Origin: Roseateles subflavus
Lineage (GTDB): Bacteria > Pseudomonadota > Gammaproteobacteria > Burkholderiales > Burkholderiaceae_C
NCBI RefSeq assembly: GCF_030285365.1
Contig: NZ_JASVDS010000006.1
Span: forward strand, 62,001 to 126,000
Direction of reading: 5' to 3'
Length of the DNA stretch: 64,000 bases
Shown here: positions 38,528 through 43,947 of the stretch, piece after piece
How the letters are laid out: every line of letters begins with the position of its first letter
Position numbering within the stretch: the stretch's first letter is position 1
Program-made: the position numbers and the translations under genes
The notes under the pieces: generated by a model
What the model was told of the DNA's origin: nothing
Database searches by the model: none
What the model saw: the letters and a program-made list of their open reading frames with translations, nothing else

Positions 38528-39295
38528 ATGAGTGCGAGCCTGAAAGTCGAGAACCTGCACAAGCGCTACGGCGACCGCGAGGTGCTCAAGGGCGTGTCGC
38601 TGACCGCCAACAAGGGCGACGTCATCACGCTGATCGGCTCCAGCGGCTCGGGCAAGAGCACCTTCCTGCGCTGCCTGAACCTGCTGGAGCAGCCCTTCGA
38701 GGGCCAGCTGTGGCTGCATGACGAGGAGCTGAAGCTCGTGCGCGACCGCGACGGCAGCCTCAAGGCGGCCGACGCGAAGCAGTTGCAGCACTGGCGCTCG
38801 CGCCTCGCGATGGTGTTCCAGAACTTCAACCTCTGGGCACACCGCACCGTGATCGAGAACGTCATCGAGGCCCCGGTGCATGTGCTGGGCGTGCCCAAGG
38901 CCGAGGCCGTGGACAAGGCGGAAGCCCTGCTGGCGCGCGTGGGCGTGGCGCACCGCAAGGATGTCTACCCGGCTCAGCTGTCCGGCGGTGAGCAGCAGCG
39001 CGTGGCGATCGCCCGCGCCCTGGCGGTCGAACCCGAGGTGATGCTGTTCGACGAACCCACCTCCGCCCTCGACCCGGAGCTGGTGGGCGAAGTGCTCAAG
39101 GTGATGCGCGATCTGGCCGCCGAGGGCCGCACCATGATCGTGGTGACCCACGAGATGGGCTTCGCGCGCGAGGTGTCCAACTACACGCTGTTCCTGCACC
39201 AGGGCCGCGTGGAGGAGCAGGGCCACCCCAAGGAGATCCTGGTACGGCCGCAGTGTGATCGCTTGAAGGCGTTCCTCAGTGGGGGATTGAAGTGA
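38528..39295 (+). CDS. Basic amino acid ABC transporter ATPase (HisP-like)
   Basis: This 255-residue ATPase has Walker [11 protein letters not shown]-loop [11 protein letters not shown], signature [15 protein letters not shown], Walker [13 protein letters not shown] and switch VTHEMGFA. It energises the two permeases upstream. It starts four bases after the deacylase gene and ends the operon, just before the repeat array with terminator-like hairpins. Confidence 0.94.
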
Positions 39296-39378
39296 CCCCC
39301 CCCTACCGGCTGCGCCGGCCCCCCCAGGGGGGCGAGCTCGGGAGCCCGGCATCGCCGGATCTCCGAGCTCCGCTGGGG

Positions 39379-39413
39379 AACAAAACGGGACCTTCGTCGG
39401 GTCCCGTTTTGTT
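39379..39413. terminator. Repeat hairpin 1 (bidirectional terminator-like)
   Basis: A perfect 14 bp stem AACAAAACGGGACC / GGTCCCGTTTTGTT with a 7-base loop, flanked by A-rich and T-rich sides so it could terminate on either strand. It is the first such hairpin after the hisP-like gene. Confidence 0.75.
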
Positions 39414-39539
39414 TTAAGCGTGAGGGGACACGCCGCCCGAGGGGCGAGCTTGAGTGACGCGCTCTTGCCAGCGGCGCCGGCCTGCCCAGGGGGCGAGCCC
39501 GTGAGCCCGGCATCGCCGGATCTCCGAGCTCCGCTGGGG

Positions 39540-39574
39540 AACAAAACGGGACCTTCGTCGGGTCCCGTTTTGTT
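39540..39574. terminator. Repeat hairpin 2 (bidirectional terminator-like)
   Basis: The 14 bp stem and loop are identical to hairpin 1, 161 bases further on. Confidence 0.7.
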
Positions 39575-39698
39575 GTGAGCGTGAGGAGGCACGCCAACCG
39601 GGGGCGAGCTTGAGTGACGCGCTGTTGCTTGCTGCGCCGCATGGCCGCGGAGGCGAGATCGGGGACCGGCACCGGCGGATCGTCGAGCACCGCTGGGG

Positions 39699-39733
39699 AA
39701 CAAAACGGGACCTTCGCCGGGTCCCGTTCTGCA
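39699..39733. terminator. Repeat hairpin 3, partly decayed
   Basis: The left arm is identical to the first two copies, but the loop reads TTCGCCG and the right arm continues GGTCCCGTTCTGCAA. Only the inner GC part and two A-T pairs remain, and the T tract is lost. It lies just beyond the 3' end of the small minus-strand gene and could act in its termination. Confidence 0.55.
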
Positions 39734-39795
39734 AGGAACGTGGGGGAGACGCCACCCAGCGTGAGCCTGAGCGGCGCGCTGCCGGGCATGTCCGG

Positions 39796-40047
39796 CTAGG
39801 CGGGGGGCTCGCCACCGGGCTTGCGGTAGGCACCGTCGACACCCGGCGCCTGTTGCAGGCGGGCCAGGGCGGCATCGAGGTCGCCGGGGCGGGTCTGGTG
39901 CAGGGTGTACCAGCCCTGGAGTGTCGGATCCGTGCTGCCCGGGTGCTGGGGCGCGGCCCGCAGGCCCAGGTGATCGAGGAGCGGCGCCAGCGAGGCCAGG
40001 GAGCCGCCGGGCATCAGCAGCAGCACGGCTTGTTCGGGTGTGTCCAT
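39796..40047 (-). CDS. Small stand-alone protein resembling the neighbouring protease propeptide
   Basis: This is an 83-residue protein starting MDTPEQAVLLLMPGGSLASL and ending DAALARLQQAPGVDGAYRKP, then GGEPPA. Its C-terminal half parallels residues ~79-119 of the adjacent S8 protease (PGSYYVLSGDV..., IEGAYLKPGGEPPV): aromatic Y-x-L strand, helix, then G-A-Y-x-K-P-G-G-E-P-P in the same spacing. Subtilisin propeptides act as chaperones and inhibitors, so this could be a trans-acting inhibitor. That is inference. The ATG at 40047 has AGGA seven bases upstream. It is divergent from the protease gene with 219 bases between. Confidence 0.7.
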   Translation of the reverse strand: MDTPEQAVLLLMPGGSLASLAPLLDHLGLRAAPQHPGSTDPTLQGWYTLHQTRPGDLDAALARLQQAPGVDGAYRKPGGEPPA

Positions 40048-40168
40048 GGGAAGTTCCTGAAGGTGTCCATGCGCAGCGTCGGCGCCTTCTCCCCCCAACG
40101 GGCCCCCTAGTCTTGGGCCCCAACCCCTCGAATGGCGGGCCTGCGATCTAGGGAGATGAGCGAACCGT

Positions 40169-40186
40169 GTCCTCAGGCTTGAGGAC
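40169..40186. promoter_or_regulatory. Inverted repeat in the divergent region upstream of the S8 protease
   Basis: GTCCTCA-GGCT-TGAGGAC is a perfect 7 bp inverted repeat in the 219-base gap between the small propeptide-like gene and the protease. It may be a regulator-binding site shared by both genes or an RNA hairpin in the protease leader. Confidence 0.4.
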
Positions 40187-40266
40187 GCCGTCGCTTGAGC
40201 GGCAGCGCTTCACTTTCGACACTGAGCCTAAGCCGGCAACCGCCGGTCCACAAGGAGGCTTACTCA

Positions 40267-42156
40267 ATGAAGGACTTTTACTCCGCCCCCGAGATCATCG
40301 TGGTGGCCAAGACATCCGCCGCCCTGCGATCGCCCAAGGGCATGCCCTCGGTCAGCGCTGGCGCCGGCGCCAAGGTCAGCGGGCTCAACAGCCTGCTCAA
40401 GAGCGCCAAGCTGAGCCTGGAACCCCTGTTCGGGGACAACGAGGCTGCCGTGCGGGCCGTCATGAGCGAACCCATGATGAAACACGCCGGCGGCGAGACG
40501 CCGGACCCGGGCAGCTACTACGTGCTCAGCGGCGATGTGAAGAACCCCAAGAAGGTCATCGCCGACCTGCTCAACGAGGAAGCCATCGAGGGCGCCTACC
40601 TGAAGCCGGGCGGCGAGCCGCCGGTGTTCCGCGAGCAGGGGGAGGCAGACGGCATGCCCGCCCCCACGGACGGCGCCCCCGCCCCCACGCCGGACTTCAA
40701 CGCCCGGCAGATCTACCTGGACGCCGCCCCCGCCGGCATCGACGCCCGCTTCGCCTGGACGAAGCCGGGCGGCCGGGGCGACGGCGGCCGCATCATCGAC
40801 CTCGAGTGGGGCTGGAACTTCAGCCACGAGGACCTGCTGGCGAACTCCGGCGGTCTGCTGGACGGCACCAACTCGGCCAACAACCACCACGGCACCGCCG
40901 TGCTGGGCGAGATCGGTGGAGACCACAACTCGCTGGGCATCATGGGCATCTCACCCAATGCCAAGCTCTCGACCATCTCCTTCGTGACCAACCCGTCCGC
41001 CGCCGCCATCCGCAAGGCTGCGGACCGCCTGGGCCCGGGGGACATCATCCTGCTGGAGATCCACCGCGCCGGGCCGCGCCACAATTTCCAGGCCCGCGAC
41101 GACCAGCTGGGCTACATCGGCATCGAGTGGTGGCCCGATGATTTCGCCGCCATCCTGTACGCCACTTCCAAGGGCATCCTCGTGGTCGAGGCTGCCGGCA
41201 ACGGGGCCGAGAACCTGGACGACGCGCTCTACAGCGTCCGCCCCAACGGCTTCCCGCAAAGCTGGCGCAATCCCTTCAATCGCAACAACCCGCAGTGCGG
41301 CGCCATCCTGGTGGGCGCCGGCGCACCGCCCCCGGGAACGCACGGCCGCAACCACGGCGCGGACCGCTCACGCCTGGGCTTCTCCAACTACGGCTCGGCC
41401 GTCGACTGCCAGGGCTGGGGCCGCGAGGTCACCTCGACCGGCTACGGTGACCTGCAGAACACCAGCACCAACACGCAGTACACCGACACCTTCTCGGGCA
41501 CGTCCAGCGCCTCGCCCATCGTCGTCGGCGCCCTGGGCTGCGTGCAGGGCTGGCTGCGCGCCGCCGGCAAGCCGCTGCTGACTCCCGCCACCGCGCGCCA
41601 GATGCTGCGCGACACGGGCTCCCCGCAGCAGGACGAACCCGGCCGCCCGGTGAGCCAGCGCATCGGCAAGCGCCCCAACCTGCGCCAGATCCACGGCAAG
41701 CTCTTCCCCAAGCCCATCCTCAAGGAGACGCTGAAGGAGATCAAGGACAAGGACCTGAAGGAAAAGGACCTCAAGGACCACATCAAGGACATCAAGGAGA
41801 AGGACACCAAGGAGATCAAGGACAAGGATCTCAAGGACATCAAGGAGCACAAGGAAAAGGACACCAAGGAGATCAAGGAACTCAAGGAGCACAAGGAGTT
41901 CAAGGAGATCGAGAAGCCCATCAAGGAGAAGGACAAGGAAAAGGACGTCTTCGAGGGCGGCATCGGCGGCGGCGGGGTCATCCGACCGCCGGCAGAGGGC
42001 GGTGCCAGCGAGGCGCGCCTGGCGGCGCTCGAGGCCACCGTGCAGAGCCTGGCGCAGATGCTGCAGCTGCAGGGTCTCGGGGCGCAGGAGCACTTCATCC
42101 CCCCGGAGCTGCGGCCGATGGTCGGCGGGGGTGGTGACGACGGCCAGGGCAGCTGA
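40267..42156 (+). CDS. S8 (subtilisin-like) serine protease with Lys/Glu/Asp repeat tail
   Basis: This is a 629-residue protein. Residues 1-~125 form a propeptide-like domain and ~145-475 the peptidase S8 domain. The catalytic residues are Asp178 (RIIDLEWGWNFSHEDL, with D-L-E instead of D-T-G), His208 (NNHHGTAVLGEI), oxyanion Asn312 (VVEAAGNGAE) and Ser413 (FSGTSSASPIVVGAL). Residues ~485-560 are almost only Lys, Glu, Asp, Ile and Leu in KEKDLKD/KEIK-type repeats, about a third lysine. A Gly-rich stretch and a short coiled coil (SEARLAALEATVQSLAQML) end the protein. There is no signal peptide, so it may be cytoplasmic. The ATG at 40267 has AAGGAGG upstream. It heads a tight operon with two ATP-grasp-like genes. 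Confidence 0.93.
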   Translation: MKDFYSAPEIIVVAKTSAALRSPKGMPSVSAGAGAKVSGLNSLLKSAKLSLEPLFGDNEAAVRAVMSEPMMKHAGGETPDPGSYYVLSGDVKNPKKVIADLLNEEAIEGAYLKPGGEPPVFREQGEADGMPAPTDGAPAPTPDFNARQIYLDAAPAGIDARFAWTKPGGRGDGGRIIDLEWGWNFSHEDLLANSGGLLDGTNSANNHHGTAVLGEIGGDHNSLGIMGISPNAKLSTISFVTNPSAAAIRKAADRLGPGDIILLEIHRAGPRHNFQARDDQLGYIGIEWWPDDFAAILYATSKGILVVEAAGNGAENLDDALYSVRPNGFPQSWRNPFNRNNPQCGAILVGAGAPPPGTHGRNHGADRSRLGFSNYGSAVDCQGWGREVTSTGYGDLQNTSTNTQYTDTFSGTSSASPIVVGALGCVQGWLRAAGKPLLTPATARQMLRDTGSPQQDEPGRPVSQRIGKRPNLRQIHGKLFPKPILKETLKEIKDKDLKEKDLKDHIKDIKEKDTKEIKDKDLKDIKEHKEKDTKEIKELKEHKEFKEIEKPIKEKDKEKDVFEGGIGGGGVIRPPAEGGASEARLAALEATVQSLAQMLQLQGLGAQEHFIPPELRPMVGGGGDDGQGS

Positions 42157-42157
42157 C

Positions 42158-43030
42158 GTGAGGGCCGCTGACGCGAACGCCGGGGTGCCCCCCGGCGGGG
42201 ACGAGCGGCCCGTGTGGCTCCTGCTGCACGAGCTGGACGACGCCAGTGCCGAGCCGCTGCGACGCGCCCTGGCACCGGCCGCCGAGGCGGCGGGTGGCAC
42301 GCTGCTCGCCGTGCCCGCACCCGCACTGCTGCAGGCGCGAGGCTGGTCGCTTCGCATGGACAGTCAGGGGGCCACGCAGAGCACCCTGCAGCTCGGGCCG
42401 CACCGCATCGCCAGCCACCGCCTGCGGGCGGTGCTGAACCGGCTGGGGCCGGTGCAGCTTGCGGGCGCAGAGGCCGATGCGGCCTACCTGCAGCAGGAAT
42501 GGCAGGCGGTGCTGGCCTTCTGGCTGGCCAGCCTGCCCTGCCCGGTGCTCAACGCCGCCCATCCGACCGGCCTGGGCGGGCCGCAGGCGTCGCCGAGCTG
42601 GTGGCGTCTGCAGGCGGCGCAGGCCGGGCTGGCCACGCGTGCAGAACCCGGCGCGGTCTTGGCCACGGGCCTGGTACGGACGCGCCTGCTCGTCCTCGGC
42701 GACCGTTGCCTGCCAGCGCCGGAGTCGGGGCCATCGGCCCGGCAAGACCCGACCCTGCAGCCCTGGCTGGACGCCCTGCCGGCCTTCGCCCGGCAGCTGG
42801 GTGTCGCGCTCCTGGAGGTGTGGCTGAGCCGTGAGCGCGGTGGCCCCTGGGTCTTCGACCATGCCGATCCGCGCCCGCTGCTGCGGGAGCTGGACGCCCC
42901 CGTCCACGAGGCCCTGCTCGACTGCCTGGCCCTGCGCCCGTCCCGACCCGCCCGGCCACTCTCACAGGCGCCGGTCGATGGCCCCGCCTTCCCTCTCCAT
43001 ACCGCCCCCGCCCGGGAGTGCCATCCATGA
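42158..43030 (+). CDS. Truncated ATP-grasp-like protein, probably catalytically inactive
   Basis: This is a 290-residue protein without a clear family by eye. Residues ~85-160 (AVLNRLGPVQL..., CPVLNAAHPTGLGGPQASPS, WWRLQAAQAGL) parallel the pre-ATP-grasp region of the next gene (VVNRISAMGSNASKPYQLRL). Residues ~209-240 (AFARQLGVALLEVW...WVFDHADPRP) parallel its C-terminal metal-site strand (VLGLPFVGLDLM...YCFEANPSPG). The intervening ATP-binding subdomain is about 60 residues shorter and lacks the lysines, and E-x-N is replaced by D-H-A-D. It starts with GTG at 42158, one base after the protease stop. The relation to the ATP-grasp fold is my inference. Confidence 0.72.
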   Translation: MRAADANAGVPPGGDERPVWLLLHELDDASAEPLRRALAPAAEAAGGTLLAVPAPALLQARGWSLRMDSQGATQSTLQLGPHRIASHRLRAVLNRLGPVQLAGAEADAAYLQQEWQAVLAFWLASLPCPVLNAAHPTGLGGPQASPSWWRLQAAQAGLATRAEPGAVLATGLVRTRLLVLGDRCLPAPESGPSARQDPTLQPWLDALPAFARQLGVALLEVWLSRERGGPWVFDHADPRPLLRELDAPVHEALLDCLALRPSRPARPLSQAPVDGPAFPLHTAPARECHP

Positions 43031-43947
43031 GCGACGAAACCGTACTGATCATCGGCAGCGATGCCCCCTGCGACATGCTTGTGCAGGCGCTGCGACACCA
43101 GGGCGCGCGCCCGCTGTGGCTGCAACCGGAGCGGGAGGCCGAGCACCTCCCGCACCATGCGCTGGCGCAGGGGCGACTCGTGGGGGGATTTGCCCACGAC
43201 GGTGCCGAGCGGGACTTCGACCAGATCCAGGGCCTCTACCTGCGCCCCTTCGGCCGCCCGGGCGCCCGGGTGAGCGTCGCGGCGCAGCATCGGCAGCAGC
43301 AGTGGTGCCAGGCCTGGTCGGACCTGGGCGAGCTGTTTCCGGGGATGGTGGTCAACCGCATCTCGGCCATGGGATCGAACGCCTCGAAGCCCTATCAGCT
43401 GCGCCTGCTGGCAGCACTCGGGTTCGCGGTGCCGCCCAGCCTTGTGAGCAATGACCCGGCGGAGGTGCTGGCCTTCGAGGCCGAGCACGGGCCGCTCATC
43501 TTCAAGTCGGCCAGCGGCGTGCGCTCCATCGTGCGCGAGCTGGACGTTGAGGCCCGCGGCCGCCTGGACCGCCTGCGCCACTGCCCGACGCTGTTCCAGC
43601 GGCGCCTGCGCGGCAGCAATGTCCGGGTGCATGTGGTGGGCCAGGAGGTCTATGCCACCGAGATCGACGCCGAGGTGGTGGACTACCGCTACGCCTCACG
43701 CCAGGGCGGCCACGCCGAGCTGCGGCCGACGACGCTCGAGCCGCGCACGCGCGAGCGCTGCCTGCGGGCCTCGCAGGTGCTGGGTCTGCCCTTCGTGGGC
43801 CTGGATCTGATGCTCGAGGAAGACGGCCAGACCTACTGCTTCGAGGCCAATCCTAGCCCCGGCTACAGCTTCTTCGAGGACGCCACGGGGCAGGACATCT
43901 CGGGCGCGCTGGCCCGCCTGCTGCGGGGTGCCGAGGCGCTGCACTGA
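43027..43947 (+). CDS. RimK/graspetide-ligase-like ATP-grasp enzyme
   Basis: This is a 306-residue protein with the ATP-grasp layout: pre-domain, Lys121 (SNASKPYQLRLLAALGF), ATP-binding Lys160 (PLIFKSASGVRS), Gln191/Arg200 strand (LFQRRLRGSNVRVHVVGQEV) and Mg ligands Asp260, Glu273, Asn275 (VGLDLMLEEDGQTYCFEANP). These resemble ligases that join carboxylates to amines or hydroxyls on peptides (RimK, MvdC/MvdD-type). The ATG at 43027 overlaps the previous stop as ATGA, with GGGAG eight bases upstream. The operon with a protease bearing Lys/Glu/Asp repeats suggests a peptide or protein substrate. The reaction is not established. Confidence 0.85.
   Translation: MSDETVLIIGSDAPCDMLVQALRHQGARPLWLQPEREAEHLPHHALAQGRLVGGFAHDGAERDFDQIQGLYLRPFGRPGARVSVAAQHRQQQWCQAWSDLGELFPGMVVNRISAMGSNASKPYQLRLLAALGFAVPPSLVSNDPAEVLAFEAEHGPLIFKSASGVRSIVRELDVEARGRLDRLRHCPTLFQRRLRGSNVRVHVVGQEVYATEIDAEVVDYRYASRQGGHAELRPTTLEPRTRERCLRASQVLGLPFVGLDLMLEEDGQTYCFEANPSPGYSFFEDATGQDISGALARLLRGAEALH

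Follow-up and report, generated by a model that had tools for sequence, protein, structure and literature searches.

The 64,000-nucleotide stretch of Roseateles subflavus contig NZ_JASVDS010000006.1 analysed here (the window) holds a compact gene group in which an S8 subtilase, whose C-terminal tail is built of lysine (Lys) and acidic (Asp/Glu) residues, is followed by a truncated ATP-grasp protein and by a second ATP-grasp protein with an intact site. Because this arrangement recurs in several phyla it is more than chance, and the system is widespread, unusually clean and real. It consists of a carrier protein, a live ligase and a dead partner, and is probably a graspetide-synthetase system whose precursor tail has been built into a full-size protein, where Lys-to-Asp/Glu crosslinks would be made. 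The parts lie in the window as follows, K[DE] standing for Lys followed by Asp or Glu, aa for amino acids and ORF for open reading frame.

39796-40047, minus strand: small propeptide-like ORF, 83 aa counted from ATG
40267-42156, plus strand: S8 subtilase, 629 aa counted from ATG, with an N-terminal propeptide-like domain and a C-terminal tail
41722-41946, plus strand: K[DE]-repeat tail, aa 486-560 of the subtilase, probable crosslinking substrate (core)
42007-42072, plus strand: helical segment in the predicted model, aa 581-602, in the stretch from tail to motif
42094-42120, plus strand: recognition-like motif FIPPELRPM from the motif scan, family form FI....RPD
42158-43030, plus strand: partner, a truncated and apparently dead graspetide-type ATP-grasp protein, 290 aa, GTG start
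43027-43947, plus strand: predicted live ligase, an ATP-grasp protein of graspetide-synthetase type, 306 aa, ATG start

One base separates the subtilase from the partner, and partner and ligase overlap by four bases (ATGA); the subtilase frame is already open from a TTG at 40195. The first-pass annotation of this DNA had described such a compact group of four genes, with this gap and overlap, and all four ORFs were found as claimed. Its Lys/Glu/Asp tail is evident from the composition of aa 486-560, with 27 Lys, 27 Asp plus Glu and 3 Ser/Thr, and inspection by eye agreed that the subtilase has no signal peptide. The pairing of a dead with a live ATP-grasp protein was likewise upheld by profile comparison, predicted fold and signature residues.

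Judged by its sequence, the live ligase is a relative of the graspetide synthetases with its site intact. Its profile scored 146 bits with PsnB, 117 with PruB, 112 with CdnC, 107 with MdnC, 92 with MdnB and 86 with AMdnB in the PDB, against 30-59 bits with RimK-type enzymes, and its closest kinship is not with the C-terminal glutamate ligase RimK. The best NCBIfam model was TIGR04187 (113.6 bits, below the cutoff of 350), TIGR00768 reached 61 bits, and the sole Pfam match above cutoff was PF08443 RimK with 37.5 bits. Fourteen signature positions are kept in all 29 ligases, with one Ser-to-Thr change, and we take the signature Lys, Asp, Glu and Asn to have the expected roles in ATP and metal binding. 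The DxR motif is a feature of graspetide synthesis, and the invariant D-Y-R of the ligase aligns with the D-F-R of PsnB.

For the partner (P0003), sequence and predicted structure support a truncated, catalytically dead ATP-grasp relative of the ligase. Comparison of partner and ligase profiles gave a match at 98.3% probability (E 1.5e-14), and when partners were aligned to the ligase profile most were gapped at the signature positions, with five from the PqqD loci described below keeping few of them. One of these five, from L130 (L numbers denote loci, G numbers genomes), bridges the two families in that the ligase model gives it 61 bits and the partner model 58. The predicted model of the window's partner (predicted local distance difference test, pLDDT, 85.9; predicted template modelling score 0.83) is closest in the PDB to PruB, MdnB, AMdnB, MdnC and CdnC, with E values from 1.2e-10 to about 1e-7 and template modelling scores mostly of 0.5-0.6. 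The dead twin is present in 28 of 29 ligase loci (the window and 27 fetched loci) and is shortened to 85 aa in L114; the four-base overlap, reckoned from the start of the hidden Markov model (HMM) match, recurs in 16 of 28 loci besides the window.

The window protein has the Asp/His/Ser triad and the fold of S8 subtilases: it matches Pfam PF00082 with 49 bits, and D178, H208 and S413 are invariant in 27 aligned sequences. A scan of species genomes with this subtilase (P0001), using six peptide patterns of which two are located in the tail, reached 73 loci, 71 with a subtilase core and two (L081 and L082, the latter cut by the contig start) matched via the tail alone. The relatives occur in Bacteria and Archaea, with best-segment identities of 43-67%, and 90% in the sister genome. 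Their C-terminus is modular, most inspected members having other C-terminal parts or none. The 71 core loci and L007 make up 72 S8 loci, 61 of them with the 2.5 kb or more of 3′ flank that made them testable; tail, motif and ligase pair are all present in 11 of these and all absent in 50, and not one is mixed (Fisher p 2.4e-12). Shorter flanks excluded 11 loci from this count (L013, L014, L015, L029, L039, L060, L067, L070, L071, L077 and L079). Among them L013 has tail, motif and pair, L070 has motif and pair, lacks a K[DE] tail and seems to have a broken S8 core, L014 has tail and motif on a contig that stops at the stop codon, and the other eight have neither tail or motif nor pair. When 68 S8 cores were placed on a maximum-likelihood tree (loci with incomplete cores, five in number, dropped; 14 tailed rows including L014), the tail required eight changes, at least six of them forced by well-supported branches. 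A lack of co-occurrence in distant taxa had been set beforehand as one of the grounds on which the first-pass annotation should fall; the arrangement does co-occur in several phyla. The central idea of that annotation, a ligase acting on the tail of the protease itself, has strong though not conclusive support in sequence evidence, namely the 61 unmixed loci out of 61, the forced changes on the tree and the graspetide-synthetase kinship.

A feature more constant than the tail had been overlooked, the motif FI....RPD. Across 89 loci with 9432 six-frame ORFs, the expression [FY]I.{4}RP[DMEN] (an earlier, looser version also matched unrelated ORFs) matched 28 times and only in carriers, namely in 26 of 28 pair loci (twice in L116) and in L014. 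Of the window's 429 ORFs only the subtilase has a match. No match was obtained in two pair loci, L114 and L010, the latter having RPL in place of RPD/RPM. Because most carriers were already known when the expression took its final form, the statistic to rely on is the background count rather than the hit rate. The motif partly resembles the Phhx(1,2)h of Makarova et al. (2022; PMC8939145), with PFITADL in the Nitrospirota proteins and HFI in most S8 carriers, and is a putative leader-like recognition motif.

When the genomes were searched with an alignment of 16 ligases (A1), family members had scores from about 284 bits upwards; weaker ligases of graspetide type, where the cutoff admitted them, had at most 133 bits, or 163-194 bits in two cyanobacteria. 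A family member was found in 1 of 299 genomes of Pseudomonadota (cutoff E 1e-30), three more having weaker ligases, and in 3/246 (the G403 phylum), 2/235 (G398), 2/194 (G406), 1/198 (G395), 8/178 (G399) and 2/178 (G401) genomes of the other samples; each count includes the seed genome, and the G401 and G403 samples overlap because G450 was found in both. Thirteen loci were reached by the ligase alone (L088 from IMG/VR, L113, L114, L115, L118 and L127-L134), and in 12 of the 13 a motif protein adjoins the pair, on unrelated folds. The carriers other than plain S8 subtilases are these.

L081 and L127: M6 metalloproteases (PF05547, 86 and 90 bits)
L113 and L118: trypsin/NAL1-like proteases; L113 exceeds the Trypsin cutoff and L118 is below every cutoff
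L115: legumain-like C13 protein, below the Pfam cutoff
L116: 500-aa protein, B-lectin-like below cutoff, with a tailed S8 protease in tandem
L134: kelch protein, Kelch_1 above cutoff
L088: DUF6519 protein, two genes after Baseplate_J
L128: protein without a Pfam match, flanked by an AAA ATPase and a Tail_P2_I protein
L129-L133, five Nitrospirota loci: PqqD proteins with the motif near the N-terminus (Pfam run on L130)

Carriers are 446-988 aa long, apart from the PqqD carriers, which are ORFs of 152-200 aa. The module, first proposed with a subtilase, is not tied to subtilases: the motif also stands on other protease types and on non-proteases.

The tail itself is a regular donor and acceptor repeat. 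At least five K[DE] units precede the motif in 22 of 30 carriers; tails are at least 30 aa long in 20 carriers, short in two and absent in eight, so that it is the motif rather than the tail that stays constant. Lys equals Asp plus Glu exactly in 18 of the 22 tails and is off by 1 or 2 in L014, L032, L081 and the second L116 carrier. Among the 20 tails of at least 30 aa, an acid follows Lys at +1 in 92% of cases (34% when shuffled), at +2 in 4%, and at +4 in 52% as against 34% shuffled (standard deviation 0.019). With only 0-4 Ser/Thr per tail, most crosslinks would have to be Lys-to-acid. The tails combine donors (Ser/Thr/Lys) and acceptors (Asp/Glu) as a graspetide core does, and a segment resembling the window's helix of aa 581-602 was seen by eye in the inspected carriers as well. 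DNA slippage as the sole cause of the tail was rejected: the window's 23 Lys codons are all AAG, yet nine other carriers mix both Lys codons (ten carriers surveyed; the counted stretch exceeded the tail in L127, L118 and L014). A search with the tail region for substrates in trans returned only the subtilase itself in the window's genome (G000); across 15 genomes it gave a single match at the known carrier in nine and none in six, and the search is insensitive, all but one (G1426) of those six genomes having a carrier in which at least part of the tail or the motif is present. Trans carriers elsewhere in the genomes are possible.

How far such a system was already described is best seen from the ATP-grasp survey of Makarova et al. 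(2022; PMC8939145), whose sections on branches 7 and 8 report no predictable precursor for either branch, peptidases of several unrelated families and, for branch 8, a truncated inactive ATP-grasp protein; in the authors' proposal, peptides would be excised from other proteins by the peptidases and so be provided. Both traits of branch 8, the truncated inactive protein beside a live one and the unrelated peptidase families, are found in the present loci, where S8, M6 and trypsin-like peptidases lie above Pfam cutoffs and a C13-like one below. The live ligase, truncated twin and diverse peptidases are therefore shared with branch 8 as described there (PMC8939145), and the first-pass claim of an undescribed system does not hold for them; it does hold for the precursor, since no precursor is given in that description whereas here the peptidases carry a probable one. 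The carrier tail is very probably the missing precursor of branch 8, with which our loci are provisionally identified from its description. A possible link with branch 7 (PMC8939145, as described there) was considered as well: three cyanobacterial loci (ligases of 163-194 bits, in two of three genomes) are without the strict motif and the K[DE] tail. At L145:7418-10408 a small ORF with PFIDINQRYD, which is loosely motif-like, accompanies a weakly partner-like gene (11 bits) and a ligase with a long C-terminal extension; at L144:7802-9243 a small ORF of GEEGG-type repeats lies beside the ligase, and L146:7648-9289 is the third cyanobacterial locus of this ligase set. These ligases (L144-L146) possibly represent other poorly known ATP-grasp branches.

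With the graspetide systems proper (microviridin MdnB/MdnC, plesiocin PsnB, corallotide CorA/CorB) the present loci share the kind of ligase with matching signature residues, repeated Lys and Asp/Glu as possible donors and acceptors, and a short motif with Phe beside a hydrophobic residue. Partner proteins are also known for some graspetides, according to the part of Carter et al. (2026; PMC13097080) that treats them. The same source assigns CorB to TIGR04187 and describes its KxxxD isopeptide bonds, which join a corallotide Lys to the Asp at +4, and for graspetide group 32 it reports diverse neighbouring protease families, with maturation or resistance as supposed roles (PMC13097080, in its section on that group). 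Group 32 thus shares the diverse neighbouring proteases, a likeness drawn from its description (PMC13097080). Graspetides have small precursors, whereas here the motif sits on a full-size protein, usually near its C-terminus, and the dead twin in 28 of 29 loci also sets the present loci apart. A short precursor with a cleaved N-terminal leader was not found, the motif-bearing neighbours being full proteins (among ORFs of at least 40 aa); in the PqqD carriers the motif is N-terminal, but a PqqD domain is present. No recurrent transporter or leader peptidase lies within 6 kb of the pair outside the Nitrospirota group. Action on whole proteins and a C-terminal leader have been obtained by engineering, the former with a graspetide synthetase (PMC12291112) and the latter with ThfB (PMC13003496), as the available descriptions have it; what was engineered there would apparently be natural here (compare ThfB cyclisation of proteins with the leader at the N- or the C-terminus, PMC12291112, PMC13003496). 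A literature search confined to open-access papers showed no description of a protease-fused graspetide precursor.

The graspetide-synthetase system, of which the sequences show the module, its motif, its co-occurrence, the unrelated carrier folds and the live and dead sites, can be pictured in the following way. The usual carrier end would comprise the Lys-Asp/Glu units, a helix and FI....RPD, the last acting like a C-terminal graspetide leader, and the ligase, probably complexed with its partner, would be recruited by this motif. That the ligase acts on the carrier we consider quite likely; that it makes Lys-to-acid crosslinks in the tail is held with less assurance, as a probable step in which Asp/Glu side chains would be activated with ATP and joined to Lys of the same tail, leaving many isopeptide (lactam) crosslinks per tail. 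In the window the carrier would be the subtilase, together with a free propeptide-like protein that is probably its inhibitor. The likeliest role of the tail, and the weakest step of this scheme, is that of a stiff and protease-resistant element that tethers the carrier or holds copies together.

Some other readings account for part of the same evidence. The ligase might extend its substrate in the manner of RimK, adding amino acids such as poly-glutamate to the carrier tail or C-terminus; PF08443 as its only Pfam match above cutoff and the many tail carboxylates would fit. This is unlikely, given the 86-146 bits with graspetide synthetases versus 30-59 with RimK-type enzymes, the D-Y-R aligned with the D-F-R of PsnB, the one-to-one Lys-to-acid tails that fit internal pairing, and the dead twin's predicted fold nearest to graspetide macrocyclases. 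We find it just as unlikely that the carriers are docking platforms only, whose proteases cut another protein and pass the peptides to the ligase (the guess made in the branch 7 and 8 sections of PMC8939145) or serve maturation or resistance (that made for group 32 in PMC13097080). Most non-PqqD carriers are indeed proteases, the ligase may dock on the leader-like motif, and sequence-variable tails could be linkers, but the kelch, DUF6519 and PqqD carriers have no recognised protease domain and the tail composition is that of a donor and acceptor repeat. Moreover, a neighbourhood screen reaching 6 kb from the ligase, with roughly called ORFs and blastp at E 1e-6, found no other family in at least three pair loci, generic ATPases and the Nitrospirota group excepted; the small protein specific to S8 loci, too rare to register in this screen, was sought separately.

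That the crosslinked tail serves as an intramolecular, graspetide-type inhibitor of the attached protease would be partly compatible with crosslinking as proposed, and draws on the fact that most carriers are proteases and that, as stated in the survey's overview of graspetides (PMC8939145), all those characterised so far are protease inhibitors. We rate it lower again than the two preceding possibilities, since the same kind of tail occurs on serine proteases, metalloproteases and a legumain-like protein, the motif also occurs on non-proteases, and the S8 carriers have a propeptide domain in any case, often along with a free copy. Lastly, the tail could be an unmodified charged linker and the pair could serve a small substrate of another kind, joined only by operon history; small precursors can be missed. 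This is very improbable in view of the 11 complete and 50 empty loci with no mixed ones, the at least six forced tail changes on the S8 tree and the same motif on unrelated carriers beside the same ligase family.

Several observations nevertheless weigh against a crosslinked precursor tail. Eight of the 30 carriers lack the K[DE] tail (L070, L088 with DUF6519, the kelch carrier L134 and the five PqqD carriers L129-L133), and the modified residues may lie elsewhere than in the tail; many carriers have a stretch like AK..KD.KD.E behind the motif. A K[DE] repeat is inherently one-to-one in Lys and acid and could be a plain charged helix, and AlphaFold pLDDT is below 50 for most of the window's tail. 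Tailed loci are over-represented among the 73, because two of the six scan patterns sit in the tail, though this bias alone does not tie tail to pair. The motif expression was fixed once most loci had been seen, L010 deviates from it, and L114 has no carrier beside its shortened partner. Furthermore, carrier kinds are clustered on the ligase tree, where S8 has a single forced change and the total is five, too few to establish that carriers are freely swapped.

The small minus-strand protein belongs to the subtilase family and not to the ligase module. Its resemblance to the subtilase N-terminal domain is weak taken alone (phmmer E 3e-3) and clear at family level, as had been proposed: among ORFs of 300 aa or more, an HMM of the small proteins matches 71, and 70 of these are S8 genes. 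The matches below 190 aa number 36 in the 89 loci, all in S8 loci, and two are fragments of S8 genes, so that free copies occur in 34 of 72 S8 loci. They adjoin subtilases with and without tail and ligase, which removes the small protein from the ligase system in which it had first been placed. Neither it nor the partner has a Pfam or NCBIfam match above cutoff. Being to all appearance a free copy of the propeptide-like domain, it is likely a subtilase inhibitor or folding aid. POIA1 (PDB title 1v5i) is likewise a free subtilisin-propeptide-like inhibitor, the inhibitory role of the window's protein being putative, and the Plasmodium SUB1 propeptide-like protein is, in the account available (PMC6993865), a free protease-propeptide copy too. 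Beside the small gene, at window 39279-39763, lie three direct repeats with a spacing of about 160 bases; their copies of 116 nucleotides resemble the first at 92% and 68%, and there is also a 57-nucleotide second register.

The same subtilase core is joined elsewhere to other C-terminal repeats (FG-GAP, and tectonin- or hemopexin-like ones by eye), the S8 genes with such regions being L026, L033, L037, L046, L065, L066, L068 and L071-L078; several of these loci have an adjoining free propeptide copy. In L129-L133 (for example L130:4898-8327) the PqqD protein with the motif and the pair are accompanied by an HPr-kinase-like gene below the Pfam cutoff, and a lasso-B2-like gene and an ABC transporter lie nearby (by eye). 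Downstream of the Nitrospira two-carrier locus, at L116:11576-18065, are a C25-peptidase-like gene below cutoff and genes resembling, by eye, TIR and NACHT-type proteins. At L088:1-8897 the pair stands beside contractile-tail genes (Baseplate_J, DUF6519), and at L128:4645-12686 beside an AAA ATPase with WHD and Tail_P2_I, with the motif on a neighbour in both; a possible reading is that the motif protein of these two loci is a component of an injection particle and becomes modified.

The window's own genome also has a second ligase of graspetide type, a weaker one (L087, G000:C12:141014-141943; 122 bits), and the sister genome G001 has three weaker ones; no motif or K[DE] tail adjoins these within their short flanks. 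Such weaker ligases were rejected as members of the system, nine short loci of 3.5-3.9 kb having neither motif nor K[DE] tail. A defence role had also been raised, and finds no backing in PADLOC, where none of the four proteins matches a family; no defence gene family occurs in at least three pair loci. Nor was a mobile element or virus retained as an explanation after searches of viral contigs and plasmids, as P0001 gave no relative in viral contigs and A1 gave there only L088, flanked by contractile-tail genes. In a plasmid search P0004 had one partial match (31% identical) and P0001 nine matches, none covering 80%.

Taken at its widest, the finding would be a portable tail module on folded proteins, among them unrelated proteases and contractile-injection-type proteins, in which a synthetase and its dead twin make multiple natural Lys-to-Asp/Glu crosslinks, perhaps as helix staples from i to i+4, and which is the missing precursor of a whole ATP-grasp branch; this full statement we regard as evenly balanced between true and false. 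The puzzle stated in the branch descriptions of Makarova et al. (2022; PMC8939145), that of ATP-grasp ligases beside unrelated peptidases without a precursor, becomes directly testable. If the reading is true, graspetide chemistry would not be for small peptides only but would also be a natural crosslinker of parts of large proteins, and its short portable tag could be used for stapling or coupling proteins.

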